The notes under the pieces are model-generated. The model was not told the origin of the DNA, made no database searches, and saw only the letters and a list, made by a program, of their open reading frames with translations. A stretch of DNA of 64,000 bases from Catalinimonas niigatensis (lineage in GTDB: Bacteria; Bacteroidota; Bacteroidia; Cytophagales; Cyclobacteriaceae), in contig NZ_CP119422.1 in NCBI RefSeq assembly GCF_030506285.1, positions 5,195,501 to 5,259,500 on the forward strand, in the 5' to 3' direction. This document shows, one piece after another, positions 1,435 through 16,927 of the stretch (position 1 is its first letter; the number at the start of each line of letters is the position of its first letter). The position numbers were made by a program, and so were the translations under genes.

Positions 1435-2033
1435 TACTTCAGGATTCCTGTGGTAGCATAAACCACGCTGTCTTTAAAGATCATTTTCTGCGTTCCTTTG
1501 GTTTCGTATTGTACTAGCCTAAGATTTCCTTCGGTATTTTCAAAGTGTAATGCCATGTTTCTGTAGGTAGTATAGAGAGGGTTCTCCTCACGGAAAATAG
1601 CTTCTACCGAATGCAGATTGGTGGTAGTATCTTTAAATATGACCTTCATATAAGGAATTTCTACTTCTTCTTTGTTTTTGGCGTAGTAGATCTTTGCCTG
1701 TAAATTCTGCTCTTGTAATATGCTGTCCTGTACTATATATTGATCTCTAAGCACAGGCTTATTTAAGTCAGCATCCGAATATAGCTTAAGGGCTTCCGCC
1801 CAGGCACTGCTATCTTTTTGTATAGTTTTGGTTTCAGTGCTGTCATCAATGCGGGCAGTAACTACTACTTCCGGGTTGAGCCGATCCAGCAAGGCAATTT
1901 GTTCTTCTATCACTCCTTTTAGATCAAAGTAGGGAGTAGCTTGTAGTTGCCTTTCCAGTTTCATCTCTTCAGGCTGGCAACTCCAAAGGGAGAGTAAAGC
2001 AATTCCTCCAATCTTAAATAATAATTTATGCAT
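1428..2033 (-). CDS. Hypothetical lipoprotein
   Basis: A 201-residue protein with an N-terminal hydrophobic stretch ending in a lipobox-like LSLWSC, so probably lipid-anchored at residue C19. The mature part is soluble and rich in Glu, Asp and Thr, with repeated short beta-strand-like segments. No catalytic motif is recognisable. It runs convergently into the Wzc-like gene, overlapping its stop by 7 bases, and diverges from the DUF427 gene. The 118-base intergenic gap carries a small palindrome (2093-2107). I do not recognise the family and assign no function. Confidence 0.8.
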   Translation of the reverse strand: MHKLLFKIGGIALLSLWSCQPEEMKLERQLQATPYFDLKGVIEEQIALLDRLNPEVVVTARIDDSTETKTIQKDSSAWAEALKLYSDADLNKPVLRDQYIVQDSILQEQNLQAKIYYAKNKEEVEIPYMKVIFKDTTTNLHSVEAIFREENPLYTTYRNMALHFENTEGNLRLVQYETKGTQKMIFKDSVVYATTGILKYY

Positions 2034-2092
2034 ATTGCGAAGGCTAATGGATCAGAATAATCGCACAAAAGTTTGCGTGCTCTATATCAATT

Positions 2093-2107
2093 ACTGACTC
2101 TGTCAGT
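2093..2107. promoter_or_regulatory. Small perfect palindrome between divergent genes
   Basis: ACTGAC-TCT-GTCAGT is a perfect 6-base inverted repeat with a 3-base spacer, in the gap between the lipoprotein (minus) and DUF427 (plus) starts. Position and size fit a dimeric repressor operator, but no regulator is encoded nearby, so this is only a possibility. Confidence 0.3.
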
Positions 2108-2205
2108 TATGGTTACAAATAAACAATAAAATGATGATGTGGCGATAAGAAATGTCTCATTACAGGATAATCAGGCCGCTGATTATTATCAAAAGAATTA
2201 AACAT

Positions 2206-2490
2206 ATGAAAGTCCTATTTAATCAACAGCTGATTGCTGATAGTAATAAGACCGAAGTAGTAGAGGGAAACCATTATTTTCCCCCGGAAGCTATTCGTCA
2301 GGAATTTTTTAAAGAAAGTAGTACTCATACCACTTGTCCCTGGAAAGGTCAGGCTTCGTACTATAGCCTGGAAGTGGCAGGAGAAAAAGCCAGTGATGCC
2401 GCCTGGTATTATCCGGAGCCCAAGCAGGCAGCGCAAAACATCAAAGGCTACGTAGCCTTTTACTCTCATAAAGTACAGATCACCGAATAA
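2206..2490 (+). CDS. DUF427 domain protein
   Basis: A 94-residue protein of the DUF427 family, a small beta-tent fold of unknown function common in bacteria. The family pattern is visible: a substrate-like loop with HTTCPWKG, then YYSLEV, and a C-terminal AWYYPEPKQAAQNIKGYVAFY segment (split here as AWYYPEP and KGYVAFY). The frame opens at 2152, but those 18 extra residues do not resemble the family, so the ATG at 2206 is preferred. It ends 11 bases before kdsB and is probably co-transcribed with it. No biochemical role can be given. Confidence 0.85.
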   Translation: MKVLFNQQLIADSNKTEVVEGNHYFPPEAIRQEFFKESSTHTTCPWKGQASYYSLEVAGEKASDAAWYYPEPKQAAQNIKGYVAFYSHKVQITE

Positions 2491-2501
2491 ATTGCAGCGT
2501 T

Positions 2502-3245
2502 TTGAAGATATTAGGCATTATTCCCGCACGCTTGGCCTCTACCCGCTTTCCGGCCAAAGCTTTGGCAGATATCCAGGGCAAAAGTATGGTGCAGCGCACC
2601 TATGAACAGGCCGCCGCCGCCAAAAAACTAGATAAAGTGATTGTGGCTACCGATCATGAAGATATCCGCAAACATGTGGAGTCTTTTGGAGGTGAAGCCG
2701 TGATGACCTCCGAACAACACCCTTCCGGCACCGACCGCTGCCGCGAAGCGCTGGACAAACAAGCCGCAGATTACGATTATGTGATCAACATACAGGGAGA
2801 TGAGCCTTTTATCCATCCCGATACCATAGATGAGCTGGCAGAGCTGCTGGATGGAGAAGTGCAACTGGCTACGCTGGTCAATGAGGTGAAAGAAGCGCCT
2901 CTGCTGTTTAACCCCACCATCATGAAGGTCATCTTTAACAAAAATAATGACGCAATTTACTTTAGTCGGGAGTGTATTCCTTACCTGAGAGGCTATGACA
3001 AAAGCGAGTGGCTGGAGCATCATACGTATTACAAACATGTCTGTATCTACGCCTATCGGGCAGATATTCTGAGAGAAGTAACCCAACTGCCGATTTCCAG
3101 TTTGGAAAAGGCAGAATCCCTGGAGCAGTTGCGCTGGATAGAAAATGGTTATTTCATCAAAGTGGGTATTACTCAGCACGAAAGCATCAGCATAGATACG
3201 CCTGCCGATCTGGAAAGAGCGCTGAAGGTCATGGGGCTGGATTAA
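2502..3245 (+). CDS. kdsB: 3-deoxy-manno-octulosonate cytidylyltransferase
   Basis: Activates KDO by forming CMP-KDO from CTP for lipopolysaccharide core synthesis in the cytoplasm. The 247-residue length matches the family (about 245-255). The N-terminal nucleotide-binding signature IPARLASTRFPAKAL is intact, followed by VIVATDHEDI, the SGTDRC loop and NIQGDEPF, all hallmark KdsB segments. The start is TTG at 2502, placing the IPARLAS motif at the usual distance from the N-terminus. It follows DUF427 by 11 bases. KdsB fits a Gram-negative outer membrane organism. High confidence from motif content. Confidence 0.96.
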   Translation: MKILGIIPARLASTRFPAKALADIQGKSMVQRTYEQAAAAKKLDKVIVATDHEDIRKHVESFGGEAVMTSEQHPSGTDRCREALDKQAADYDYVINIQGDEPFIHPDTIDELAELLDGEVQLATLVNEVKEAPLLFNPTIMKVIFNKNNDAIYFSRECIPYLRGYDKSEWLEHHTYYKHVCIYAYRADILREVTQLPISSLEKAESLEQLRWIENGYFIKVGITQHESISIDTPADLERALKVMGLD

Positions 3246-3315
3246 GGTAAAACCCGATGCATAAGAAGAGGAAAAAGTGTATTATTGGTGAACATTTGCA
3301 GTAATAAAAAAGAAA

Positions 3316-3792
3316 ATGAAAGAAATAGCCAACATCCGTAAAGCAAGAGAAAACTTTGTAGACCTTCTGGATGGGATGGACGAAACTGCCTTAAACCATA
3401 TTCCCCAGGGGTTTAACAATAACATCATCTGGAACTTCGGCCATATCATTTCCAGCCAGCAAATCCTCTGTTATAAGCTCTCCGGGCTGCCTATGCACGT
3501 AAGTGAAGAGGTGGTGGAGTCATTCAAAAAAGGAACTAAACCCAATGGGACAGTAAGCAGTACCGAGATCGCAAAACTCAGGGAACAGGCGATGTCTACC
3601 CTCAATAAGCTTCAGGAAGATGTAGACAAGCAGCGTTTTCAAGACTATCATGCATATACCACCAGCTTTGGCATCACCCTTACCAACATTGAAGAAGCAA
3701 TTCGCTTTGATGCTATGCATGAATCTTTGCACCTGGGCTATGCCATGGCGTTGAGAAGGGCAGTGAAGAAGGAACTGGAACTCGCTTCCTAG
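3316..3792 (+). CDS. DinB-fold (YfiT/DinB superfamily) protein
   Basis: A 158-residue four-helix-bundle protein of the DinB/YfiT superfamily, whose members bind a divalent metal through three histidines and often act as thiol-dependent transferases or stress proteins. Candidate ligands are the His in WNFGHII and the two in HESLHLG, at the expected helix 2 and C-terminal positions. The start ATG follows an A-rich stretch. It stands alone between kdsB and a convergent gene, with a bidirectional terminator-like hairpin just downstream. The substrate is unknown. Confidence 0.85.
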   Translation: MKEIANIRKARENFVDLLDGMDETALNHIPQGFNNNIIWNFGHIISSQQILCYKLSGLPMHVSEEVVESFKKGTKPNGTVSSTEIAKLREQAMSTLNKLQEDVDKQRFQDYHAYTTSFGITLTNIEEAIRFDAMHESLHLGYAMALRRAVKKELELAS

Positions 3793-3853
3793 GCATACTA
3801 GTGTACGCCTCTCAGACTAAGCGGAGTAGCCATAGGCTAAGCAGCAAAAGAAA

Positions 3854-3879
3854 ATTCCCTGAAGCTTGCCCCAGGGAAT
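3854..3879. terminator. Bidirectional intrinsic terminator
   Basis: ATTCCCT and AGGGAAT form a 7-base stem, flanked by an A-run on the left and a T-run on the right, between the convergent DinB gene and the sugar isomerase-like gene. It can serve both strands. Confidence 0.7.
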
Positions 3880-3907
3880 CTCATTTTTCTTATTTGGAAT
3901 CTATGAT

Positions 3908-4774
3908 TTAATTGAATCCAATGTCTTCCAAAGCTTCGTGGCTGATTTTGATGGCTTCTATGGGGGCTAAACCATCATAGGTTTGGTCCTGCTCCACAAT
4001 GTAATATTCCATACCTGCCAGTTCTTTGTGCTCAAGAATACTTTCAAAATCAATGGTACCCGTTCCTACCGGAGCAAATCTGCCCTGCTCATCCATGTCT
4101 TTCACATGCCAGATTTTAAAACGGCCCGGATATTTTTCAAAATACGCCACCGGATCTGCGCCTGCTTTTTTCACCCAGTACAGATCCATTTGGAAATTCA
4201 TCGTGGAGGAGTCTAGCTTTTCAAGCATATAATCTATGGGTACAATTCCGTTTGCATTCTCTTCAAATTCAAAAGCATGGTTGTGATAAAGAAACTCAAG
4301 GCCTGCCGCCTTACTTTTCTCTCCAATTACCCTCAGTATGTTGACCAGTGAGTCCACATTATCGCTCATGGAGAGGCTTTGGGTGCTTTGATCATATTTG
4401 AAAAGGCCCATGGGCGGTACAGGAGCCACAAAATACTTGAATCCGGCAGCTTTTACATCAGCAATCAGTTTGTCGGCATTGTCCAGCGTTACTGATCCCA
4501 TATGCACACTCAGCGGCACCATCCCTAAATCATTAAGTTGCTTTTTAAAAGCTTTGGGCGACATATTATAAAATTTGCCATCCTTATAGTCCACTGCTTC
4601 TACGTATTTGTAGCCAATATCCGCCACCTTTTTCAGGGTTTCAATCGGATCAGTGCCCATTTCATTACGCAGGGTATAGAGCGTCATTCCTCCAAACTTA
4701 TCCTGGGAAAAGCCGGGTAAAGCTATGCATAGCAGGATAGTCACAAGCATGCATGGTATCAAAATTTTTTTCAT
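3908..4774 (-). CDS. Secreted sugar phosphate isomerase/epimerase-like TIM barrel
   Basis: A 288-residue AP-endonuclease-2/xylose-isomerase-like TIM barrel with a Sec signal (hydrophobic residues 5-20, cleavage near GFSQ). Conserved barrel segments are visible: MTLYTLRNEM, a YKYVEAVDY strand, LEFLYHNHAFEF, MDLYWVKKAGADP, FKIWHVKDMD and YYIVEQDQ. In this family Glu, His and Asp residues at these strand ends bind a metal for keto-enol isomerisation or epimerisation. Family members in Bacteroidota often act on 3-keto-sugars or inositol in the periplasm; that role is inferred. A relative lies at 52880. The gene has its own long upstream region. Confidence 0.88.
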   Translation of the reverse strand: MKKILIPCMLVTILLCIALPGFSQDKFGGMTLYTLRNEMGTDPIETLKKVADIGYKYVEAVDYKDGKFYNMSPKAFKKQLNDLGMVPLSVHMGSVTLDNADKLIADVKAAGFKYFVAPVPPMGLFKYDQSTQSLSMSDNVDSLVNILRVIGEKSKAAGLEFLYHNHAFEFEENANGIVPIDYMLEKLDSSTMNFQMDLYWVKKAGADPVAYFEKYPGRFKIWHVKDMDEQGRFAPVGTGTIDFESILEHKELAGMEYYIVEQDQTYDGLAPIEAIKISHEALEDIGFN

Positions 4775-5110
4775 AGGTTGTTATTTTTGTTGATTAAAAT
4801 GATTAAAAATGTTAAGCCTGCCAGCGATGGATCAAGGAATACAAACCTGTATACTTTGCCAGTCTTTGCCTGCTTGATAAGTCTGCGTACATTACTGTCA
4901 CAAGCTTAAAATGAAGTATGAAATTCCTTTATACACACTTAAACGACTTCCCAATTTAATGGAAATAAGTCTATTTTGTGCTTATCCCCATGTTTAATCG
5001 CTGATATCAGGGAGAATCACCTTAATTCCTACGAAAGTCCATAGCGCTTGTGTTACTCTACGGGAATAAAATCACCTATCCTTTTACGCTATCCCAATGG
5101 CACAGAAATA
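4775..5110. other. Intergenic region upstream of the TIM-barrel gene
   Basis: 336 bases between the end of the flavoprotein gene and the start of the minus-strand TIM-barrel gene. No ORF, RNA gene or strong hairpin is apparent. It most likely carries the promoter of the 3908-4774 gene, but no clean TTTG/TAnnTTTG pair could be identified. Confidence 0.4.
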
Positions 5111-6346
5111 TCATTTGAAAATTAGTTTCGTGTAAAAGGAGGGCTTTCGCAGTTCTTTCCTGAGATCAGTATTGTTAAGCATGGAAGTGAGTAAAGTCCG
5201 GACAGATTCATTTTTTTGGGCCTTGTTGACCAGAAAATTAAATATTCCCGGATATTTTAACATCTTCTGCATAGACCTGCTCACACGCAACTCGGTCCAC
5301 ATCCTTCGGTAGATTTCCCTATCGTAGCGGATATTAAAATCTGCATCAAATCGCTTTTGCTCAAAAGCTTTTAGCAGATGATCTGCTGCTATTCTGCCGC
5401 TACGAATGGCATTGCCGATGCCTTCTCCCGTAAAAGGGTCTATCAGGCTGGCTGCATCTCCTAATAGTAAAAAGCGGTGTCCGGAACACGCTACTTTTCT
5501 GGAACCGATAGGGAGGCCAAAACCCTGAATAGCTTCCAGCGGCTTCGCATCTTTGAACCTATGCTTCACATGAAGATGATGTTGAATAATATCCGTTAGC
5601 TTTTCTTTCAGATTGATCTTCTGCCGGCTTACTTCACTGGAAAGCATGCCTATGCCTACATTCGCCTGTCCGTTAGGTAAAGAGAAAATCCAGAAATAAC
5701 CGGGTAGCAATTCCTTATAAAAATGTAATTCTATACAATCCGTCTGATGAAGTTCATCTATCCCTTCAAAATACTGTCTTACTCCTGCACAATAGTGATC
5801 CCGATCCACTTTGTTGTTGGTGAGTTGTCTGTTGACCACGGACTGGGCTCCATCAGCCCCCACCACTATGCTGGCACTGAAGCGGCGCTTATCAGTACGG
5901 ACAAGCACCTCATTTTCCAGATTCTCCAGTTGCTCCACCTGATGATCCTCAAATATGGTGATATCTCCTAAACCCTTGATCTGATTGAAGAGGAAATTAT
6001 CAAAATCAAGTCGCTTAGCGATATAGCCGGCAGAGGCCGGATGATTGGGATTGGTAAAATGAAAATCCAGGTGCTTATAATTAGGTGCGACAAAGCGAAT
6101 GCTGTTCACATCTTTTTTCCGGACGCTTTGCAGGAAGCCTTGCGACAAACTTACATCAATGAGCTTCAGCTGATTGATCACGTCCGGGCTGAGGGCATCA
6201 CCACAGATTTTATCACGCGGAAAAACGGCTCTTTCAATCAGGGCTATCTTAAGACCTTTTCCGGCTAACTGCAGGGCACATATACAACCTGCCGGACCGG
6301 CACCTACGATAATCACATCAAAATCATCATGTTTGGTCGTATTCAT
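5111..6346 (-). CDS. Geranylgeranyl reductase family FAD-dependent oxidoreductase
   Basis: A 411-residue flavoprotein of the geranylgeranyl-reductase/halogenase-like group. The N-terminus holds the Rossmann GAGPAGCICALQLAGKG motif followed by LIERAVFPRDKICGDALSP, typical of this subgroup. The second FAD motif (LLGDAASLIDPFTGEGIGNA, about residues 292-311) is intact. Members reduce isoprenoid double bonds or act as menaquinone- or lipid-modifying reductases; the substrate cannot be told from sequence. No signal peptide is evident, and the C-terminus is basic and hydrophobic, consistent with peripheral membrane binding. It follows the helicase/VF530 pair on the same strand after a 108-base gap. 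Confidence 0.9.
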   Translation of the reverse strand: MNTTKHDDFDVIIVGAGPAGCICALQLAGKGLKIALIERAVFPRDKICGDALSPDVINQLKLIDVSLSQGFLQSVRKKDVNSIRFVAPNYKHLDFHFTNPNHPASAGYIAKRLDFDNFLFNQIKGLGDITIFEDHQVEQLENLENEVLVRTDKRRFSASIVVGADGAQSVVNRQLTNNKVDRDHYCAGVRQYFEGIDELHQTDCIELHFYKELLPGYFWIFSLPNGQANVGIGMLSSEVSRQKINLKEKLTDIIQHHLHVKHRFKDAKPLEAIQGFGLPIGSRKVACSGHRFLLLGDAASLIDPFTGEGIGNAIRSGRIAADHLLKAFEQKRFDADFNIRYDREIYRRMWTELRVSRSMQKMLKYPGIFNFLVNKAQKNESVRTLLTSMLNNTDLRKELRKPSFYTKLIFK

Positions 6347-6454
6347 TTTAAGATCTTAAGCGATAGCTTCAAACTTATGTATTTCTCATTAATCATCGCC
6401 GGATCTTCTCTGGCAGGCTAACCTAACTAACTTTTGTTTTCCATTGACTTAGCG

Positions 6455-6694
6455 CTACTGCTTCTTGCGTATCATCTTTAAGTAAAGTTGTTCTACCTTG
6501 TCCCTGGCCCAGGAAGTCCTTCTCAGAAACTTAAGGCTGGACTTAATAGAAGGATCGTAGTTGAAGCATCTGATGTTGATGATACGGCCCAGTTCTTCCC
6601 AGCCATAGGTGGCTACCAGTGCTTCCAGCATGTCTGCCAGTTTTACGCCGTGCAATAGGTTATTGGGCTGTTGTTGGTCTTTGGGTGCATCCAT
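6455..6694 (-). CDS. VF530 family DNA-binding protein (DUF2132)
   Basis: A 79-residue protein matching the VF530 family: [19 protein letters not shown], then [15 protein letters not shown], then [20 protein letters not shown], which are the conserved blocks. Family members bind double-stranded DNA in a structural study of the Vibrio homologue; the cellular role is unknown. It begins only 6 bases after the helicase stop on the same strand, so the two are very likely one transcript. Confidence 0.9.
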
Positions 6695-6700
6695 AAGTGT

Positions 6701-8014
6701 TTAAGCTAAAAGGCTTATCCTTACTTTTTTCTTTTTTAAGGGGCTATTGTTCAGTTGTTGGATCAATTGTTTTGCTTTTGAAGTAGGCACTGCCACGAAG
6801 GCGCAATCCTGTTTCAATTCAATGACACCGAGTTCATCTTTGCTCAACTTACCTTGTTTAAAAAACAAACCGGCAATATCTCCTTTGGAGATTTTATCCT
6901 TCCTGCCCCCGGAAATGAAAAGAGTCTCCCAGGCTTTTGTAAGCTTTTCATGATTGGGCTTTAGGGTAAGCACTTCGGCTCCTTTGGCAAATGGAGGAAG
7001 GCTTTCTTTTTCCAACCTGATCATATAGGCGGTGCCTTGGCTATTCATTCTGGCGGTTCGCCCATTTCTATGCACAAACTCATCCTCCGTCAAGGGCAAT
7101 TGGTAGTGAATGATAAAATCCATTTTGGGCACATCAATGCCCCGGGCTGCCAGATCGGTAGCAATCAATATGCGGTGAGTGCCATTCCTGAATTTGATAA
7201 GCGCCCGCTCTCTGTCCACTTGTTCCAGACCGCCATAAAAGCAGCTATGGTCAATAGCATTCACAGCAAGGTAGTCGCTCACCGTTTGTATACTCTCCTT
7301 TAAATTGCAAAACACGATACCGTTTTTTCCCCCCAGGTGCCTGAGCAACTGCACCAAAGTCTCCAGTGTATTCTTATTAGTAGCAAGAACAGTCTTCAGT
7401 TGAAGCCGTGGACTGCTTTCTCCGGGGAAGTTGAGGTATTTTGGATTTCTGATGCCCATAAAAGCGGGAATCTTCACTTTCTGTGTGGCTGAGGTCAGTA
7501 CTTTCTTTTTAACGGAGCGTAGACTGCTAAGGATGGCACTCATTTCGTCGGCAAAACCGACTTCCAAAGATTTGTCAAACTCATCCAGCACCAAAGTTTT
7601 GATGTGATCGGTAGCAATCGTACCTCTTCTCATATGATCGGCTATCCTACCTGGTGTTCCGATCAAAATGGCAGGAGGGTGTTTCAGGTCTAGCTTGTCC
7701 TTAGCACCTGCCCTTCCCCCGTACACCGCATTGGTCTTGAAACCGCTACCCATCTCCCGGGTGACTTGTTCAATTTGCAAAGCAAGTTCCCGGGAAGGTA
7801 CCAGGATCAATGCCTGTACTGCGGTCAGTTCCGGGTCTAGTGCTGCGATGAGGGGAAGTAGAAAAGCCAGCGTTTTACCTGTACCGGTAGGCGAGAGCAG
7901 GACCACTTCCGGCTGAGACGAGATAGCTTCATAAGCACTTTCCTGCATAGGGTTTAATGCCGCTATGCCTAACTTATCCAATATGGCCTTGATGTCTTTG
8001 TTTTTCCCTTGCAT
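6701..8014 (-). CDS. DbpA-like DEAD-box RNA helicase
   Basis: A 437-residue ATP-dependent RNA helicase. Motifs in order: Q-motif region near residues 10-25 (LNPMQESAYEA), motif I SPTGTGKT, Ia PSRELALQ, Ib TPGRIADH, motif II as DEFD instead of DEAD, motif III SAT, motif V ATDLAARGID, motif VI HRNGRTARM. The last 70 residues (KDKISKGDIAGLFF onward to VRISLL) match the DbpA C-terminal RNA-binding domain, which in E. coli DbpA recognises 23S rRNA hairpin 92. A role in large-subunit ribosome assembly is therefore likely. It is the first gene of a probable operon with VF530. The DEFD variant appears in Bacteroidota relatives and need not impair activity. Confidence 0.92.
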   Translation of the reverse strand: MQGKNKDIKAILDKLGIAALNPMQESAYEAISSQPEVVLLSPTGTGKTLAFLLPLIAALDPELTAVQALILVPSRELALQIEQVTREMGSGFKTNAVYGGRAGAKDKLDLKHPPAILIGTPGRIADHMRRGTIATDHIKTLVLDEFDKSLEVGFADEMSAILSSLRSVKKKVLTSATQKVKIPAFMGIRNPKYLNFPGESSPRLQLKTVLATNKNTLETLVQLLRHLGGKNGIVFCNLKESIQTVSDYLAVNAIDHSCFYGGLEQVDRERALIKFRNGTHRILIATDLAARGIDVPKMDFIIHYQLPLTEDEFVHRNGRTARMNSQGTAYMIRLEKESLPPFAKGAEVLTLKPNHEKLTKAWETLFISGGRKDKISKGDIAGLFFKQGKLSKDELGVIELKQDCAFVAVPTSKAKQLIQQLNNSPLKKKKVRISLLA

Positions 8015-8163
8015 ACCGCAAAGGTAGAAAATAAGATGGAGGTATCCTGTATTAAATGATTTGGTCTATTCGTTTAAGGGATGTTTTTTAATGCTTACTC
8101 AACGATTCGTTGAAGTTTCGCCGTAGCCTGACTATTAAGGAGTGTCACATCACACGCTTGTTA

Positions 8164-8454
8164 CTAAAGCTTTTCAATCTCCTCTTTTGATAAACCAGTG
8201 ATTGCGGATATTTTATCTATCGGATCACCAAACTTTTTCATTTCTTTGGCAATCTCAATTTCTCTTTCACTGGCACCCTCCTTTTTAGCAGTCTCTATGA
8301 CACTGTAGTTGTCTCTATAAGTTTTCAAGCTTTCTTCGTATGCTTTCATGTCTTCTGGTTTTAATTTGGCTATCTCTGCTTCGTTGAATAACCTTTCAAA
8401 TACCTTTTCTTGTAATTTAACGGGTCTACTTTGCAATTGATGCAAATTCTGCAC
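8164..8454 (-). pseudogene. C-terminal remnant of Rpn/PD-(D/E)XK nuclease family transposase
   Basis: Ninety-six codons resembling the C-terminal tail of recombination-promoting nuclease (Rpn) proteins: SRPVKLQEKVFERLF, AEIAKLKPEDMKAYEESLK, YRDNYSVIETA and a final helical GLSKEEIEKL. Full Rpn proteins are about 280-320 residues; the whole N-terminal nuclease domain is absent. The only start is a GTG at 8454 directly after an in-frame TGA, next to the left end of the IS110 element. No matching N-terminal part is visible on the far side of the element, so the loss was probably not a simple insertion. Probably inactive. Confidence 0.75.
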
Positions 8455-8457
8455 TCA

Positions 8458-8513
8458 CTCAGAGTCACCTGTAAGCGGCCGCCGCTGCGGGGACTCTGAG
8501 CTTTTGAAAAGCT
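8458..8513. repeat. Nested hairpins at the left end of the IS110 element
   Basis: CTCAGAGTC (8458-8466) pairs perfectly with GACTCTGAG (8492-8500). Inside the loop, AGCGGC-C-GCCGCT is another near-perfect palindrome (8474-8486). Immediately after, AGCTTTT-G-AAAAGCT (8499-8513) is a third. This could be the element's structured left end, or a pre-existing REP-like hairpin that was the insertion target. Confidence 0.6.
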
Positions 8514-8759
8514 GACACAGTTATCACTAGCTCATTGTCCTCTGCGACAATTCCATTGTAAGTTTACTTAAAGCTAAAAAAGAGTAAATTAGGATGGGCG
8601 CAGTCATACAGAAATTCCATTGGTAGTATAATACCGTCCGCAACGTTTCGTAGCTGTGCCCACCGATTCCCATGCTGGATAGTTCTCTAGGCCAAGAGCC
8701 TGCTTACAACGCAAGTGTAAGGGAATCATCAATCAGGTTAAAATAAACATTTCAAAGTT
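8501..8759 (+). ncRNA. Candidate bridge RNA region of the IS110 element
   Basis: Noncoding and highly structured. Stems seen: ACAAT/ATTGT at 8547-8559, TTTACT/AGTAAA at 8563-8568 and 8583-8588, and an end domain in which GATTCCC (8665-8671) pairs with GGGAATC (8721-8727), enclosing AGGC/GCCT (8689-8701) and CTTACA/TGTAAG (8703-8721, one base shared). It is established that IS110-group elements encode a bridge RNA in the noncoding end upstream of the recombinase, with loops that pair to target and donor ends. Here the 16-base segment at 8543-8558 matches the right end (9775-9790) at 15 positions. RNA ends and expression are inferred. Confidence 0.5.
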
Positions 8760-9764
8760 ATGAAAAGATTCATTGGCCTTGATGTATCAAAGAAAACTTT
8801 TACAGTAGCATTTCCACTTGAGGAAGATTATCAGGTAGCAGAATTCACTAACGATGTGGCAGGCATTGATACATTGATGCCATTGCTCAATAAACAAGAA
8901 GATCATCTGATCATGGAAGCTACAGGCCATTACAGTGGTTTGCTGGCTTATACATTATGTCATGAAGGATATCAGGTTTCTGTCATCAATCCTAAACAAG
9001 CTTCTTATTTTGCTAAGATGCAGTTGAGCATCACCAAAACAGATGTGCAAGATGCTAAGATGCTATCTTGTTACGGACAACTCATAAAGCCTGAACTCTT
9101 CAAACCTCACTCAGACGTTCTGTTGAAAATACAGCATAAGCGTGTAGTCATCAGGCAGTTGAAGAAGCAGCAACATGCACTGGAATGCATTGGAAAGGAG
9201 CAGCCCTGGCGCTACTGCTCTGATGAACAGGCCGAGCAGGTGTCAAAAGAAGCGCTTCAATTCATCAAAGATAAAATCAAAGAACTAGAAAAGAGCCTGT
9301 GCCAACTGGCTCAACGAGAATTCAGCACTTTGATAGAATTGCTTGTTTCTGTAAAAGGTATCGGAAAAAGCATCTCGACTGCTCTGATAACAGCAACAGG
9401 TGGTTTTCAATTGTTTGATACACCCAAGCAATTTGCTAAGTTCTTAGGCATTGCCCCTTGCCATCATCAATCGGGGACCAGTGTCAAGTGGAATCGAGGA
9501 ATGAACCGTGGAGGTGATCCTCACCTGAGGGCATTATTGTTCATGGGAAGTTGGTCAGCTATTCGTTACAACTCATCCTGTAAAGCACTCTACCAGCGGC
9601 TTAGAGCAGCAGGAAAACCTGGCTATGTCGCACTCATTGCCGTTTGTAATAAACTCATCCGACAGATATTTGCCGTAGTGAAAAGCAGTAAAAAATATAT
9701 TGACAACTATGAAGAAAAGCAAAGTCCCTCAAATAAAAAAATACAGAACAACCTTGCTTTTTAA
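8760..9764 (+). CDS. IS110-family transposase (RuvC-like DEDD recombinase)
   Basis: A 334-residue recombinase. The N-terminal RuvC-like domain has GLDVSKK (Asp8), EATGHY (Glu53) and KTDVQDAK (Asp95, Asp98), the complete DEDD set. The C-terminal Transposase_20 domain has VKGIGKSISTALI, FLGIAP and SGTSVKWNRGMNRGGDPHLR, containing the serine (about 238-241) used for strand exchange in this family. Both domains are whole and no frameshift is visible, so the element may be active. The ATG at 8760 begins the canonical MKRFIGLDVSK opening. The noncoding region upstream probably contains its promoter and guide RNA. Confidence 0.95.
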   Translation: MKRFIGLDVSKKTFTVAFPLEEDYQVAEFTNDVAGIDTLMPLLNKQEDHLIMEATGHYSGLLAYTLCHEGYQVSVINPKQASYFAKMQLSITKTDVQDAKMLSCYGQLIKPELFKPHSDVLLKIQHKRVVIRQLKKQQHALECIGKEQPWRYCSDEQAEQVSKEALQFIKDKIKELEKSLCQLAQREFSTLIELLVSVKGIGKSISTALITATGGFQLFDTPKQFAKFLGIAPCHHQSGTSVKWNRGMNRGGDPHLRALLFMGSWSAIRYNSSCKALYQRLRAAGKPGYVALIAVCNKLIRQIFAVVKSSKKYIDNYEEKQSPSNKKIQNNLAF

Positions 9765-9774
9765 CATAGTTCGT

Positions 9775-9804
9775 TGCGGCAATTCCATTGCGGGTGACTC
9801 TGAG
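9775..9804. repeat. Right end of the IS110 element with hairpin matching the 5' noncoding region
   Basis: TGCGGCAATTCCATTG (9775-9790) differs at one position from TGCGACAATTCCATTG (8543-8558). Within it, GCAAT-TCC-ATTGC (9779-9791) is a palindrome; the upstream copy is ACAAT-TCC-ATTGT (8547-8559), so the outer pair changed from G-C to A-T. GGTGACTCTGAG (9793-9804) is the right inverted-repeat arm. Confidence 0.6.
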
Positions 9805-9884
9805 GAGAAAGATTTCTCCTGGCTTTGGATAATTACTCATTTCCAATCTTCTAAATCAGCAGATCCTTTCTGGCGCGCGTTTAA

Positions 9885-9964
9885 TGCAACGTAACGCGTG
9901 CCATCTGCACAATTAACTATACCTACGATAGATTTGTGTTCCCTCAGCACGCGTTACCGTTGCA
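9885..9964. repeat. Long inverted repeat between the IS110 element and the KAP gene
   Basis: TGCAACGTAACGCGTGC (9885-9901) faces GCACGCGTTACCGTTGCA (9947-9964): 17 paired bases with one unpaired base in the right arm, around a 45-base loop. There is no T-run, so it is not a typical terminator of the minus-strand KAP gene that ends at 10023. The single extrahelical base recalls recombination hairpins such as attC, but no integron core sites are recognised. Confidence 0.65.
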
Positions 9965-10022
9965 CTCAAACAACCATTTAAGTGACATGCAATTATTGTA
10001 TAAGTTGATAGCTACTGACTCT

Positions 10023-11432
10023 CTATAATTTAATGTCTTCCAATAACTCAATCCTATTTGTGAAATATCCTAAATCTAAATCTCCTTCATTTCCTTTATG
10101 GATGTATTCTAGTATATTTAGAAAGACATTATTACTATCTTTATCAATAGTTGAGTCTATTAGAAGCTTGTTTTTTCCGGTTTCAGTATCCCATTCATAC
10201 AGTTTTTTTTCGTAATTTTGTGATTCAAGATAATTATGATAAAAATTAACTAAATAAACTTCTAGCCTTATTAATTCCCTTTCTGTTTGTCCATTTTTAC
10301 TAAACTCGACTATTGATAGAAATTCTTTTTGCATTTGAGCTATTGTCAGTAGCTTGTTTTTCAAGTTATCGTAAAAACTACTATGAATTATCTTTGTAAA
10401 AGTGAGAAAAAGAAAGATATGTGGTACTACATAACTATTTGCATCAAAACTTCTCAATGAAAGTCTTGAAAGAGCGAATATTTTTTCCTGCTGCCTGAGA
10501 GGAATTTTTTTACCTGTGAAAAGCAATTTGCAAATACTCAAAAAGTCGCCACGGTCAGAAGTCAGTTTACTATATTTTCTCCTTTCATCAGATTGAAAGA
10601 ATTCATCAAATCCAAAATATTCATATAGATATTTATAGAAAATATCGGCTTCTGGATCAGGAATCGAATATTCTAGGTCAATAAACCTTCTTAAATATTC
10701 ATCCGCGTCTATATTGTCGCTTCCATAAACTCCTTTAACTGCATTACCAAGTTGAGTTTTGTCAATAGACAAAATAAATACAATATTTGGTACTGAAAAA
10801 AAGTGTTTTATCTGTTCTAATATTGATACTGCATAATTTGGTCTACAGCGGTCAAGTTCATCAATAATAAAAATTAAGGGTTTCCCTTCGTTTGTATTTG
10901 CGATAAATTCAGCTAGACTGTTTTGAAAATCAGTAATGCTTTTTTTCTTTTTTGCATAATCATTAACTTCTTTTTCAAAGATATCAGTTAATCCTTTTGT
11001 TACTCCAATAATTGCATCTTGTATACCTTCTGTATCGATGTATCTATCAGCAATTGCTTTTGCTACAATAGGTGCTATATGTTTTGTAAGTATTGCAGCC
11101 TTATTTAATGTAGATTTGAATTCAGGTTCAGTAGATTCTGTAGTTAGGGTTTTCAACTCACCCATCAAAGCTGTCAGAGGATTATTCTCAAAATCATTTT
11201 CCCATGCGTTAAAGTATACTGTCTGATATTCTTTATTTACTAGCTCTTGCCTCCACATCTTTACGAATGTTGTTTTTCCTGTGCCCCATTTATTATTAAT
11301 TGCCAAAACAAATCCATATGAATAAGAATCAATGATATTAGTCAAGATATGGGCATACTTTTGCCTTCCCAACTTACAATTTGCAAAAGGGTTTTCATCT
11401 GATATTTCTATTTCATTGTGTTTAATATTCAT
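10023..11432 (-). CDS. KAP family P-loop NTPase
   Basis: About 469 residues from the ATG at 11432; the frame extends upstream to 11522, but those 30 residues look noncoding. KAP features: NNKWGTGKTTF (Walker A, about residues 47-56), the characteristic YFNAWENDFENNP shortly after, and Walker B in LIFIIDELDRCRPNYAVSILEQIKHFF (cited in parts: LIFIIDELDRC, then LEQIKHFF), then VFILSIDKTQL. KAP NTPases are STAND-related ATPases, often with membrane insertions and often in anti-phage or mobile contexts. No convincing membrane pair is seen here. The gene is visibly more AT-rich than its neighbours and sits beside an IS element, suggesting transfer. The role is unknown. Confidence 0.85.
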   Translation of the reverse strand: MNIKHNEIEISDENPFANCKLGRQKYAHILTNIIDSYSYGFVLAINNKWGTGKTTFVKMWRQELVNKEYQTVYFNAWENDFENNPLTALMGELKTLTTESTEPEFKSTLNKAAILTKHIAPIVAKAIADRYIDTEGIQDAIIGVTKGLTDIFEKEVNDYAKKKKSITDFQNSLAEFIANTNEGKPLIFIIDELDRCRPNYAVSILEQIKHFFSVPNIVFILSIDKTQLGNAVKGVYGSDNIDADEYLRRFIDLEYSIPDPEADIFYKYLYEYFGFDEFFQSDERRKYSKLTSDRGDFLSICKLLFTGKKIPLRQQEKIFALSRLSLRSFDANSYVVPHIFLFLTFTKIIHSSFYDNLKNKLLTIAQMQKEFLSIVEFSKNGQTERELIRLEVYLVNFYHNYLESQNYEKKLYEWDTETGKNKLLIDSTIDKDSNNVFLNILEYIHKGNEGDLDLGYFTNRIELLEDIKL

Positions 11433-12121
11433 AATTCTGTGCTTTGTATTTTCAGCTTGTACACCTCGTATAATAGCAATGGCATATTTTCGGTGGGCAG
11501 TTATTTCACATACACCTCTCAAGATAAGGGTATTATTTACTTCTTAAGTGATTTTGTATAAAAATACTACGTTCTTATCAGTTTATTAAATAAAGTTAAT
11601 AGTTCTTTATCAACAGTTACGGAGAGGGGGTAGGTTACTCTGCCTCGCCCTTTTGATTCCTTTCTTTTTGCTTGCATCCTCGGGTTTTGCCCCAGGAGGT
11701 CGTTTCCACTGATGCTTTTGCTGGATGGCAATCTAAGGGATCGTCACCGGACGTGCATCCGGTAGGTTTTGTCTTCGGGGATGAGAGCTTAAGGCAGTGC
11801 CCTACAGATGGAAGGCCGGGAGGTAATATCCGGTGGCCCATCCATAGGGTGGAGTAAGGTAGAGGTAATATCCTGTCACCCATCCCACTGGCGCAGCCTT
11901 GGGATACGCTCCCCGAAAGCTGATCCGGGGCTTTTTTGCCCTTTGCCCACAATTCATACCAGTGAATGATAAAAGATGATTGCTCTGAAAATGCCGCGCA
12001 AAAGTGTATCTGCTTTGATAGCATCTTGGGTAAGAAGGATTGCCGCCAAGCAGTGTTGGTATGAGACCGCTTACGGACATCTTTCAAAATCATACATTTT
12101 ATTCACATTATCTTAAGAAAG
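11433..12121. other. Gene-poor stretch with a doubtful ORF and an internal 42-base repeat
   Basis: The first 190 bases are AT-rich and presumably carry the KAP promoter. From about 11625 to 11935 composition turns GC-rich. A minus-strand frame at 11635-12093 (152 codons) is open but has low-complexity, unstructured predicted sequence and resembles the spurious ORFs often called in such Bacteroidota intergenic blocks. Two 23-base copies (11821-11843 and 11863-11885, 20 identical) lie 42 bases apart, keeping that frame. CCCCG/CGGGG near 11906-11928 followed by a T-run looks like a plus-strand terminator. I do not accept the ORF as a gene. Confidence 0.35.
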
Positions 12122-12793
12122 ATGAATTCAAAATCAGACAGCAGTATGCTGGAGGCTGCCGAGTTGGCGGTATCAGCGATGCAGCAGGAGAGCGTAAGGC
12201 TCATGATGGAAGCGTATGGGCTGACGCCCGAGCGGAAACAGCAGGGCGAAAGCCTGATAAGCAAAGCCAAAGGCTGCCAGAAAAATCAGGCAGCGCTTTA
12301 CGATGACCAGTGGAGCTTGTCACAGCAGCTCAAGGCCCAGATGGATGCCGTACAGGCACAGTTTAAGGAGCATGGCATGGTATGCCGTACCGCCCTTCGC
12401 AGAGATCCTGCGCTGCTGCATTCGCTCAAAGTCAACCGCTTTGCCAAAGAGGGCTGGCCCTGTATCCGTCAGGCCGCTTACTTCTATACCCGCGTACTGG
12501 AGCAGCAACTCAACCTCCAGCCTTATGGGGTCAGCAAGAAAGAAGTGGAGCAGGTGAGTGCGGCGGTAAGCCAGCTCCTGAGCATGAAAGAAGAGCGGAC
12601 GCTTAAGAAAGGTAGAGCGGAGAGCTGCACACAGCAGAAAAATGCTGCTTTCAAAGCATTACGCCAATGGGTGTCAGACTTTAGAACTACTGCCCGCATG
12701 GCTTATCGTGACGATCAGCAGATGCTGGAAGCTTTTGGCATACTGGTGCTCAGCAGCAAAAAGAAGCGTAAGGAAAGCCCTGTCCAGGCATAG
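12122..12793 (+). CDS. Hypothetical helical protein of a Bacteroidota-type family
   Basis: A 223-residue, almost entirely helical, soluble protein without signal or membrane segment. Visible blocks: a Gln/Ser-rich N-terminus, LTPERKQQGESLI, a middle CRTALRRDPALLHSL and a C-terminal LRQWVSDFRTTARMAYRD. Similar short hypothetical proteins with a terminal VSDFR-type motif recur in Bacteroidota, in my recollection, without known function. Codon usage is richer in G and C than the adjoining KAP gene. It is followed directly by a MITE-like palindromic element and is convergent with the aldehyde dehydrogenase gene. Function unknown. Confidence 0.7.
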   Translation: MNSKSDSSMLEAAELAVSAMQQESVRLMMEAYGLTPERKQQGESLISKAKGCQKNQAALYDDQWSLSQQLKAQMDAVQAQFKEHGMVCRTALRRDPALLHSLKVNRFAKEGWPCIRQAAYFYTRVLEQQLNLQPYGVSKKEVEQVSAAVSQLLSMKEERTLKKGRAESCTQQKNAAFKALRQWVSDFRTTARMAYRDDQQMLEAFGILVLSSKKKRKESPVQA

Positions 12794-12810
12794 TATAATA
12801 GTGTATAGTA

Positions 12811-13018
12811 GACCTGCCAGATTTTAAGTCTGTATATGATTAGCGCTCCACGCCGGACGTAGTAATACGTCACTCCGAGCCCTCAGGGCGTGGGAGTCTC
12901 CCCGTTTTTTGCAAAAAATTGGGAGATTGCCACGGGCTATCGCCCTCGCAATGACGTATAAACCCTTTTTTATACGTCCGGCGTGGAGCGCTAATCACAT
13001 ACTGAAATCTGGTAGGTT
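12811..13018. repeat. MITE/REP-like palindromic element
   Basis: A perfect 24-base inverted repeat (12838-12861 and 12973-12996) is extended outward by imperfect pairing (CCTGCCAGATTT left; AAATCTGGTAGG right) to arms of about 45 bases. Between them lies a second symmetric block containing CTCCCCG... and GGGAGATTGCCACGGG, ending CTCGCAATGACG, a sequence type seen in dispersed palindromic repeats of many bacteria. The roughly 208-base unit has no ORF, so it is a non-autonomous repeat. Its ends and copy number cannot be judged from one window. Confidence 0.75.
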
Positions 13019-13028
13019 TATGAACAAT

Positions 13029-13084
13029 GAGTAATGAACAATGATTGATACGCCATTGATGCCATTCATCATTATTCATTACTC
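13029..13084. terminator. Inverted repeat between convergent genes, possible terminator
   Basis: GAGTAATGAACAATGAT (13029-13045) pairs with ATCATTATTCATTACTC (13068-13084) with one mismatch, 17 bases long and AT-rich. It separates the hypothetical gene at 12122 from the convergent aldehyde dehydrogenase and may terminate either transcript, although no T-run follows. Confidence 0.45.
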
Positions 13085-13092
13085 ACCAAACA

Positions 13093-14460
13093 CTACTTCT
13101 CCAGCCACACCGTCTTCTGGTTGACAAACTCACGGATGCCCAGGTGGGAGAGTTCGCGTCCGTAGCCGGATTTCTTGACACCGCCAAAGGGAAGGGCAGG
13201 GTGGGAGGCCACCATTTTGTTGATATACACCGCACCGGAATCTACCTGTCGTACAAAACGCTTGCCTTTTTCAATGTCTTTGGTCCATACGCAGCCACCT
13301 AAGCCGTAAGGAGAATCGTTGGCAATGAGGATAGCTTCTTCCTCGTCTTTCACTTTAAATACCGAGGCTACCGGTCCAAACAATTCCTCATCATAAGCAG
13401 GCATGCCGGGTTTGAGCTTGCCCAATATGGTAGCATTGAAGAATGCCCCTTCTCTAACCGGTCTGTCACCTCCCAGCAATACTTCTGCGCCTTTCTCCAC
13501 AGATTTCTTTACCTGTTCCAGCAGTTCATCGGCCAGGTCTTCGCGTGCCATGGGGCCGTAGTCGGTGCCTTCCTCATTCGGATCACCCTGTTTTAGGGCC
13601 GCCATTTTTTCTTTAAACACTGCGATAAACTGATCGTAGACTTCCTGCACCACGATAAAGCGTTTGGCAGCAATACAGCTTTGCCCGCAGTTCTGCATAC
13701 GTGCCTTCACGGCAGTAGTGGCGGCTTTCTCCACATCCGCATCGGCTAATACAATAAAGGGATCACTGCCTCCCAGTTCCAGCACAGTTTTCTTCAGTTC
13801 CTGACCGGCCTTGGCGGCTACCTTACTTCCGGCACCTTCACTACCGGTAAGGGTGGCGGCTTTGATACGCGGATCTTCCAGGAGGTGGTTTACTTTCTTG
13901 CTGGGAATCAATAAAGATTGAAAACAGCCAGGGGGAAAACCAGCTTCGCGGAAGACTTCTTCCAGTGCCAAGGCACATTGAGGTACATTGGAAGCATGCT
14001 TGAGAATACCCACATTGCCTGCCATCAGAGCCGGGGCAGCAAAGCGGATCACCTGCCAGTAGGGGAAATTCCAGGGCATAATAGCCAGCACCGCACCCAT
14101 AGGATCGTAGGCAATATAGGCTTCCCCTTCGTCAATAGGCAAAGGTTCATCGGCCAGAAACTTGGCTGCATGCTCTGCATAATATTCGCAGCAGAGGGCA
14201 CACTTTTCTACCTCGGCGATGGCTTGTTGCTTGGTCTTACCCATCTCATCGGTCATGATCTGTGCATACTTATCTTTGTTGTTGCGCAGTACATCGGCTG
14301 CTTTATGCATTAATTTGGATCGTTCTTCAAAAGAAGTTTTACGCCATTGGTAATAGGTGGCATCAGCTTTTTGCAGGATTTCTTCAATCTGTGCGTCGCT
14401 ATGCTCTTCAAATTCTTTGATCACTTTATTATTCAGTGGATTGGTACTTTGCATTGACAT
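13093..14460 (-). CDS. NAD(P)-dependent succinate-semialdehyde dehydrogenase-type ALDH
   Basis: A 455-residue aldehyde dehydrogenase. The length and the short N-terminus match the Sad/YneI-type succinate-semialdehyde dehydrogenases. Seen: [13 protein letters not shown] (cofactor and Asn region), [13 protein letters not shown], catalytic Glu in LELGGSDPF and catalytic Cys in [12 protein letters not shown], then [11 protein letters not shown] and a C-terminal [15 protein letters not shown]. It oxidises an aldehyde to its acid in the cytoplasm; succinate semialdehyde is the likely but unproven substrate. It stands alone, divergent from hemE across a repeat-filled 298-base gap. Confidence 0.92.
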
Positions 14461-14540
14461 AAAAAATAATTTACATGTTTAAAAATCAGGGTCGTTGTTC
14501 AATGTACAAATAACAATGAACAAGGGGAGGATTGTTATGA

Positions 14541-14695
14541 GTGTTATGGTTAACAAGTGTTATAGTGTTAAAGTGTTATAGTGTTAGGGTTCCAGGGGTT
14601 ATGATGTGACAATGTTAAAGTACATGATGACTATTGTCTCAAAAAAGTTATAATCCTATAGATAAAGTAAAGTACCCACCATAACACCATAACAC
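14541..14695. repeat. GTGTTAT-type repeats with inverted copies
   Basis: Several near-copies of GTGTTAT(A/G)G occur between 14541 and 14588, and two overlapping reverse-complement copies (CCATAACAC) at 14679-14687 and 14687-14695. The gap between the divergent aldehyde dehydrogenase and hemE could therefore form a large imperfect stem. No ORF is present. Confidence 0.6.
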
Positions 14696-14723
14696 CCTAA
14701 ACTCAAACAGTTGAACGCTGAAC

Positions 14724-14755
14724 TTTGAACTTTGAACTTTGAACTGATATCTTTG
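14724..14755 (+). promoter_or_regulatory. Candidate Bacteroidota promoter of hemE within TTTGAAC repeats
   Basis: TATCTTTG at 14748-14755 fits the Bacteroidota -7 consensus TAnnTTTG. A TTTG at 14724-14727 lies 20 bases upstream, in the -33 position; it belongs to a tandem TTTGAAC array (three copies to 14744). Transcription would begin about 14759-14761, at the hemE ATG itself. Confidence 0.45.
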
Positions 14756-14758
14756 GGC

Positions 14759-15799
14759 ATGCAATTAAAGAACGACTTATTATTAAGAACCATTCGCGGA
14801 GAGAAAACGGAGCGTACGCCGGTATGGTTGATGCGTCAGGCAGGTAGAATACTTCCTGAATACCGTGCGGTACGAGAAAAGATGCATGGCTTTGTAGAAC
14901 TGGTCAAAAATCCGGAACGTGCAGCAGAGGTAACCATACAGCCAGTAGATATACTGGGCGTAGATGCGGCCATTATTTTTTCAGATATACTGGTGATCCC
15001 CGAAGCGATGGGCTTGCCCTACGAAATGGTAGAAAAGAGAGGCCCTTACTTTCCCAAAACCGTGCGCTCAGCAGCCGACATAGACCGGCTCAAGGTAGCC
15101 GATATCTCCGGCGATCTGGCGTATACGCCTGAAGCCATCAAAGTCACTAAGCGAGAGCTGGATGGTCGTGTACCCCTCATCGGTTTTGCCGGTGCGCCCT
15201 GGACCATCTTTGCCTATATGGTAGAAGGTTCGGGCAGCAAGACCTTCTCCCGTCCCAGGGCTATGCTGTATCAGGAGCCGGAGATGGCGCATCGGCTGCT
15301 ACAGATGATTACCGACAGTACCATTGCCTATCTGAAAGCACAGATAGCCGCCGGTGCTGATGTAGTACAGGTATTTGACTCCTGGGCAGGCATACTTTCC
15401 ACACAGCAGTATGCAGAATTTTCCTTATCTTACATAGCCAGGATATGCGATGCCATCACCGAGGTGCCGGTAACGGTTTTTGCCAAAGGCGCTTTCACCA
15501 GTATGCCTGACATGAATGCACTAAACTGTGCTACCCTTGGGCTGGACTGGAATATGGACATTCCTCAGATGCGCGCGCTCTTTGGAGAGGGCAAAGTATT
15601 GCAGGGAAATCTTGATCCCGCTGCTTTATATGCGGATAAGGCAACCATCAAAAAAGAGACCCGACAGATGCTGGATGCTTTTGGTCCTTACCGGCACATT
15701 GCCAATCTAGGGCATGGTGTGTACCCCGACATTGATCCCGATAAAGCGAAATACTTTATAGAGGAGGTCAAAGAGTACAGCGCAGAGATGCGCAGCTAA
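14759..15799 (+). CDS. hemE: Uroporphyrinogen decarboxylase
   Basis: Decarboxylates the four acetate side chains of uroporphyrinogen III to give coproporphyrinogen III in heme synthesis. From the ATG at 14759 the protein is 346 residues and begins [13 protein letters not shown], aligning with known HemE N-termini; the frame opens at 14732, but that extension is made of repeat DNA. Signatures: [59 protein letters not shown] and LQGNLDP, with HGVYPDIDP near the C-terminus. All expected substrate-pocket residues appear intact. The only heme gene in the window; the following gene starts 3-6 bases later and may be co-transcribed. Confidence 0.96.
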
Positions 15800-15802
15800 A
15801 TA

Positions 15803-16927
15803 TTGATGCCAAATCTGTTTGATATATTTTCGCCATTATTAACTCTGTTAGAATCTACTAACCTACAACTTCCTGTAAAAAAGGTGAAACTGGAGCAGCG
15901 ATATAGAAGTTCTGTAGCCTGCCTCATACTCTGCTTTCTTTTCCCCTGGATGATGGCCTGCGAAAGCGTCTCGCAGCAATATCAGGGGGAGAAGATTGAT
16001 GGCGTATGCCTGGAAGCTCCCCGCGATTCCATTGCAGAGGCAGCTATGGCATCGGTCCAAACCATCGGTGCCGGATGGGTAGCCATCGTGCCTTATGCTT
16101 TCTCAAAAGAGAATGATCCTATAGTCAATTATAGCGGTGTCGGGAAATGGTGGGGAGAAACCAAAGCAGGGACAGAGCACACCATCCGTTATGCCAAAAA
16201 CCTGGGGCTTAAAGTGATGCTGAAGCCCCATGTCTGGATACAGCGGCAAGGCTGGCCCGGTGATTTTACCCTCAAGTCGGAAGAGGAATGGCAGCAGTGG
16301 GAGCAGTCTTATACTGCATATCTGGATATCATGACAGACATTGCGATCAGCACAGAGGTAGAAATACTCTGCATAGGCACTGAGTTTCGTGTGGCTGCCA
16401 GAGAACGGCCTGAGTTCTGGCGCAAGCTAAGCCAGCGCATCAGGAAACGATACAAAGGCAAGCTTACCTATGCTGCCAACTGGGATAATTTTGAGAAGGT
16501 CAGCTTCTGGGATGCATTAGATTATATTGGCGTGGATGCTTACTTTCCCCTGTCCGAAGATAAAAACCCTTCGGTAGATGTGTTGCTGGAGCATTGGGAA
16601 GAACCTCTGGAACTAATTGATGAGGTGAGAGAAGAGTACAACAAACCTATCCTATTCACCGAATACGGTTATCGCAGTGCCGACTATGCGTCGCGGGGAC
16701 ACTGGCATAATGAAAGAGAGGATCTGGTAGAAAATATACAAGCGCAGGAAAGAGCGTATGAAGCCCTCTATCAGACTTTCTGGAATAAACCCTGGTTTGC
16801 CGGAGGCTTTCTCTGGAAGTGGTATCCTTATGAAAAACGCGATAGCCACAGGAATTCCTGGGAAACCGACTTTACTCCTCAGGAAAAAGCAACAGAGAAA
16901 GTCATTCAGCAGTACTACACACAGTAG
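15803..16927 (+). CDS. GH113-like glycoside hydrolase, probable lipoprotein
   Basis: A TIM-barrel hydrolase resembling family GH113 (beta-mannanase-type). After a hydrophobic stretch ending FLFPWMMACE (lipobox-like Cys near residue 53 of the long frame) come KIDGVCLEAP, GAGWVAIVPYAFS, LKVMLKPHVWI, EILCIGTEFRVAARE (probable acid/base Glu), DYIGVDAYFPL and ILFTEYGYRSADY (probable nucleophile Glu), then GGFLWKWYPYE. It would act on a beta-mannan or related glycan outside the inner membrane. The frame starts TTG-ATG at 15803-15808, but a GTG at 15884 gives a more normal signal peptide. It directly follows hemE, an odd partner. Confidence 0.85.
   Translation: MMPNLFDIFSPLLTLLESTNLQLPVKKVKLEQRYRSSVACLILCFLFPWMMACESVSQQYQGEKIDGVCLEAPRDSIAEAAMASVQTIGAGWVAIVPYAFSKENDPIVNYSGVGKWWGETKAGTEHTIRYAKNLGLKVMLKPHVWIQRQGWPGDFTLKSEEEWQQWEQSYTAYLDIMTDIAISTEVEILCIGTEFRVAARERPEFWRKLSQRIRKRYKGKLTYAANWDNFEKVSFWDALDYIGVDAYFPLSEDKNPSVDVLLEHWEEPLELIDEVREEYNKPILFTEYGYRSADYASRGHWHNEREDLVENIQAQERAYEALYQTFWNKPWFAGGFLWKWYPYEKRDSHRNSWETDFTPQEKATEKVIQQYYTQ

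Follow-up and report, generated by a model that had tools for sequence, protein, structure and literature searches.

In IS621 of Escherichia coli, as described in two reports (PMC11208160; PMC11208158), the bridge RNA is encoded in the left end of the element, with a target-binding module followed by a donor-binding module and guides on both sides of each loop, and insertion takes place in REP elements. The element considered here appears to resemble IS621 in each of these respects and in its catalytic residues, but the phmmer match between the two recombinases reaches just E 2e-28, the guides are other ones, the core is not CT, the right target guide extends at least 5 nt beyond the core, and the promoter pattern is of another type. 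The IS1111 group likewise combines a recombinase of the DEDD family with bridge RNAs, according to part of PMC11208160; in that group, however, the right end encodes the RNA and the sub-terminal inverted repeats are long, whereas the right end here is 10 nt long and no inverted repeat of at least 10 nt was found joining the element's two ends. ISCro4 (PDB 9t56) has a homologous recombinase (E 1.8e-28), a likeness that concerns the recombinase only. TIGR-Tas, compared by protein only, shows a partial similarity (NCBIfam TIGR_Tas_endo, 40.9 bits over part of the recombinase, below the cut-off of 100).

The element lies in a 64,000-nucleotide stretch of DNA (the window, G000:C1:5195501-5259500) from a host genome that consists of a single 7.13-Mb contig. 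Its left end very probably encodes, at a rough probability of 0.93, a bridge RNA on the + strand that would guide the recombinase to REP-like sites. The putative guides match target and donor, the pairing covaries and an independently built model matches, in line with the sequence-only reading, which had proposed a guide RNA at this position with its own specificity; the latter is true of the guide sequences, but the kind of system is one already known. The locus appears to be a new example within the known bridge-RNA systems, a placement that is well supported by sequence comparison. A keyword search of one open-access library found no paper on a bridge RNA in a Bacteroidota IS110 element and none on an IS110 "bridge recombinase".

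The element and its recombinase

The IS110-group element spans 8557-9774 (+ strand; 1,218 bp) and has a left end of 203 nt and a right end of 10 nt. These limits follow from a second copy at G000:C1:3313457-3314674 (- strand), which is 100% identical across the 1,218 bases; between the copies, the stretch 8529-9807 carries nine differences, all of them in the flanks and none inside 8557-9774. The span 8501-8759 that had been put forward as the candidate RNA does contain the RNA, but its first part, 8501-8556, is host flank and the left half of the target repeat. The first letters of the element are the right donor sequence (RD) TGTAAG (8557-8562, +), which is complementary to RNA positions 8703-8708, and by sequence and copy comparison the element's right end (9766-9774, +) consists of the left donor sequence (LD) ATAGTTC and the putative donor core GT.

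The recombinase (8760-9764, +; 334 aa) has both of its domains intact, as had been read from the sequence: PF01548 (DEDD_Tnp_IS110) matches at 65.0 bits against a cut-off of 29, and PF02371 (Transposase_20) at 78.6 against 21.3. The NCBIfam model NF033542, "IS110 family RNA-guided transposase", scores 191.4 bits (cut-off 140). Solved structures at E ≤0.001 comprise two distinct sequences, ISCro4 and IS621. In a hand-counted alignment, D8, E53, D95, D98 and S238 stand opposite D11, E60, D102, D105 and S241 of IS621, and changing any one of these in IS621 abolished recombination, according to part of PMC11208158.

Fold and conservation of the putative RNA

The sequence-only reading had described a GATTCCC/GGGAATC stem that encloses two more hairpins. 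Its positions are right (GATTCCC 8665-8671, GGGAATC 8721-8727) and the stem is real, but it belongs only to the second of two consecutive modules, each of which consists of an internal loop and an inner hairpin. The predicted target-binding module (8592-8664, +), with its outer stem, internal loop and inner hairpin at 8622-8635, is seen in the model, the covariation and the fold; the predicted donor-binding module (8665-8727, +), which has the GATTCCC/GGGAATC outer stem, can also be read directly from the sequence. One enclosed hairpin, 8689-8701, is conserved and present in the minimum-energy fold, but the other fails: a second inverted repeat, 8703-8708/8716-8721, is readable in the sequence and is absent from both the minimum-energy fold and the modelled structure. 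A possible 5' stem-loop (8561-8590, +) appears in the minimum-energy fold alone. When folded, 8592-8729 (+) reaches -48.0 kcal/mol against a shuffle mean of -33.96 (sd 3.49; z = -4.02), and none of 200 shuffles is as stable, whereas the opposite strand gives z = -2.06 (8/200 as stable) and the wider stretch 8529-8762 gives z = -2.53 (1/200).

Rfam returned nothing at gathering score, and the three weak matches at E ≤10 were unrelated, none of them lying across 8592-8729. A search of genome contigs with the recombinase protein alone as query yielded no relative, but a nine-protein alignment (A1) yielded 444 loci, of which the best 80 (L089-L168; 32-45% identical, mostly Bacteroidota by record titles) were kept; further relatives were taken from genomes of the family and from plasmids. 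Since MAFFT and RNAalifold gave only a partial consensus on 16 left ends, the structure was defined manually on an alignment of 19 left ends (A2) that excludes the window. In it 28 pairs were placed, 27 of which are used by the covariance model R1; a further alignment that includes the window (A3) served for position comparison only.

R1, although made without the window, scores 52.9 bits on 8592-8729 (E 2.4e-11, a rough figure like every E-value from this model). This is the one significant match in the 64 kb, the runner-up having E 1.3, and across the whole genome R1 finds the two copies of the element only. Among the best 80 of the 444 loci, 74 are matched at E <1e-4 (57/58 and 17/22); the target guides of these elements differ from those of the window. 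As 17 of the 74 helped to build R1, the proportion among unused loci is 57/63, a figure that includes some near-identical copies. The six loci without a match at this threshold are L122 (E 5.7e-4), L091, L107, L166, L130 and L136, and the left ends of L091, L107 and L166 are cut off by the end of the record or locus. Fifteen further sources, including the window, L082 and L083, gave 14 matches, L085 having none at E <1e-4.

The two copies in the genome do not differ anywhere within the element, so aligning them yields no covariation. An alignment of 74 matches (A4) comprises 69 distinct sequences. In it, two-sided changes occur in every one of the 27 modelled pairs, compared with 22.0 in shuffles (0/500 as high). 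Cells able to pair amount to 95.5% against 67.4% when shuffled (0/500 as high), and covariation is 0.818 against 0.272 (0/500), falling to at most 0.179 when the structure is slid by 1-3 columns; A4 was fitted to the structure under test and is hence biased in its favour, and relatedness, which the slid control keeps, is not accounted for in the shuffles.

The host genome also contains two further IS110 types (L017-L019 and L020-L021), with three copies each and about 28% identity to the element. Neither L017 nor L020 has an R1 match, and these types may have a bridge RNA of a different kind. On an Enterobacter plasmid, a weak R1 match (L086:2333-2484; 12.6 bits, E 0.56) lies right before an IS110 ORF, the place expected for a distant bridge RNA.

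A promoter pattern known from Bacteroidota is TTG, 17-22 nt, TAnnTTTG. Within 75 nt ahead of the RNA, this pattern occurs in 14 of 53 loci, compared with 0.24 expected from shuffles, and its -7 part alone in 30 of 53 (3.1 expected); among the nearest relatives there are ten in which 13-15 nt separate its end from the start of the model. In the window the pattern is matched only in part, by a weak TTG-N20-TAAGTTT that spans the joined ends. This weak promoter would fit the notion that the bridge RNA is genuine and the element no longer mobile, as would the presence of just two copies in the genome. Beyond its own genome, the element was not present among 390 genomes of the order, of which eight others have short weak DNA matches, nor did 390 genomes of the family hold a protein more than 40% identical. 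Loss of mobility is nevertheless unlikely, for the two copies are identical over 1,218 bp at different sites, and the ORF and its catalytic residues are intact.

Guides and the REP-like target

Four segments of the putative RNA correspond to the two substrates. The left target guide, AAAUUCC with core AU (8612-8620, +), matches the target CAATTCC-AT, with a 10-nt exact match, AATTCCATTG, between RNA 8613-8622 and host site 8549-8558; the right target guide, CCGCA with core AC (8638-8644, +), is complementary to GTTGCGG at 9773-9779. The left donor guide, AUAGUUC (8679-8685, +), has the same sequence as the element's right end at 9766-9772, and the right donor guide, CUUACA with core AC (8703-8710, +), is complementary to the GT-TGTAAG formed where the ends join. 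In this order, the longest exact matches are 10, 7, 7 and 8 nt, which shuffles reach singly in 0.13%, 5.9%, 10% and 0.74% of cases and jointly in 0/10,000; the right target guide and the left donor guide are weak when taken singly. With the junction fixed, the ordered guide match is 32 nt, and 5,000 dinucleotide shuffles peak at 26.

The RNA lies directly upstream of the recombinase ORF, which is where a structured leader, or an antisense-RNA target that controls recombinase translation, might also be found, its matches to target and ends being incidental. Four guide matches in the correct order and sense are not expected of such a leader, nor would guides of relatives be expected to track their own flanks, as they do, and this explanation is very improbable; a bridge RNA could be regulatory in addition.

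The tracking of flanks was examined in relatives. Because a blind junction search, in which many relatives do no better than their 12 shuffles, is too permissive for many single relatives, a permutation test was used instead. Guide blocks could be read in 66 loci; both flanks were available for 55 of these, and 53 remained after near-identical left flanks were dropped. For the left target guide, the shared length is 7.09 nt in the left flank of the same locus and 5.11 nt in those of other loci; for the right target guide, taken as its reverse complement, the values are 6.98 nt in its own flank and 5.29 nt in those of others (0/20,000 permutations each), whereas four wrong-side or wrong-sense controls were equalled in 1,525 to 15,840 of 20,000 permutations. 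Both results remain at 0/20,000 when the window is left out, and the 14 nearest loci alone give 1 and 0. The own flank is strictly the best in just 13/53 loci for the left guide and 6/53 for the right. In the window, the left guide has a 10-nt match in the right flank as well, because the repeat unit is doubled there.

The occupied target is a REP-like repeat, of which copy comparison and sequence place the left half at 8531-8556 (+), ending in the left target sequence (LT) CAATTCC (8548-8554) and putative target core AT (8555-8556), and the right half at 9775-9804 (+), starting with TGCGG (RT, 9775-9779). When the flanks are joined, a REP-like palindrome is restored at both insertion sites, that of copy 2 having diverged. 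AATTCCATTGCGG occurs at exactly four places in the genome. Three are vacant sites (3316613, 3317848 and 3319487), each inside a palindrome and none more than 5 kb from copy 2; the fourth is the right-hand unit at the occupied site in the window. Allowing up to one mismatch raises the number to 16, compared with 5 for the reversed control. Copy 2 lies directly behind an ORF that matches the NCBIfam REP-associated tyrosine transposase (82.8 bits, cut-off 80; Pfam Y1_Tnp 19.8 bits, below its cut-off of 23). An RNA that pairs with both ends of its own element and with a hairpin sequence repeated in the host would explain the insertion site, and with a target inside a REP-like palindrome the element would settle in dispersed host repeats.

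Host repeats are common around both copies, and the AATTCCATTG 10-mer is present at 8549, 8613 and 9781, so that the left guide might be viewed as a host REP fragment trapped in the element. It sits, however, where relatives with other targets keep a variable guide that matches their flanks, the right target guide matches the opposite side of the site, and guides follow targets over the 53 loci; a trapped fragment is accordingly a most improbable source of the match.

Several further repeats of this kind were seen. Paired REP-like palindromes cluster around the REP-associated tyrosine transposase gene at G000:C1:3313383-3319970 (L016), a region that also contains copy 2 and the three vacant exact sites. 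At G000:C1:5850793-5850832 (L061, L062, L087, L088), a repeat of the same type contains several 14-bp units in tandem, CAATTCCATTGTGG. The occupied site in the window likewise contains two units of this kind, 14 bp being the length of an IS621 target. Another REP-like palindrome, CTCAGAGTC ... GACTCTGAG, lies at 8458-8500, about 30 bp ahead of the occupied one. In two other genomes (L069-L072 and L067-L068), sites of the form GTCAT ... TGCGA resemble dispersed repeats and match their own loops by eye.

Predicted recombination and the core dinucleotide

By analogy with IS621, the bridge-RNA reading predicts the following events. The left end would be transcribed on the + strand into the bridge RNA, which the recombinase would bind, and the excised circle (ATAGTTC-GT-TGTAAG) would be brought together with the host site (CAATTCC-AT-TGCGG). 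Ser238 would then cut both top strands directly after the core T, whereupon the strands would be exchanged and the Holliday junction resolved. The locus offers a full testable parts list for a bridge-RNA element far from IS621, namely a recombinase, an RNA, a donor junction, a natural target and three vacant natural sites.

Parts of PMC11208160 and PMC11208158 describe both top strands of IS621 as cut directly 3' of the core, and the second core base as a nearly invariant T that follows a variable first base. The two junctions of the present element overlap in TTG. From the geometry of the RNA (positions common with relatives, the nearest of which have the donor register TTC-GT), the target core would be AT and the donor core GT. 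With unequal cores and a top-strand cut after the core, AT is expected at the left junction and GT at the right, as in this register. In a register shifted by one, the core would be TT on both sides, and the left target guide fits at 9/9 positions but the left donor guide loses position 7.

Eight loci pass all guide thresholds, and the first core bases are unequal in five of them, the window included; the core table scores the left junction of the window in the TT register (T versus G), so that the window is unequal there too. No rule for the first core base emerged. In the five unequal loci, the right guide follows the donor in two (the window and L139), the target in one and neither in two. 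Conceivably, though doubtfully, the halves of the target loop set different first core bases, the left guide corresponding to the host AT and the right guide to the element's own GT, so that the right guide would pair better with the incoming donor strand. If so, handshake pairing would reach into the core, favour strand exchange and permit targets with a differing core. The locus lends itself naturally to the question of whether the cores of target and donor have to be the same.

Beyond the element, the window contains a 96-aa ORF (8164-8454, -) that is probably a gene remnant, its match to Rpn/PDDEXK_2 nuclease models being confined to their C-terminal part, and a KAP P-loop NTPase (10023-11522, -) with weak similarity to the defence ATPase QatA (61.3 bits against a cut-off of 600). 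A widely spaced inverted repeat, TGCAACGTAACGCGTG / CACGCGTTACCGTTGCA, can be read by eye at about 9886-9965.
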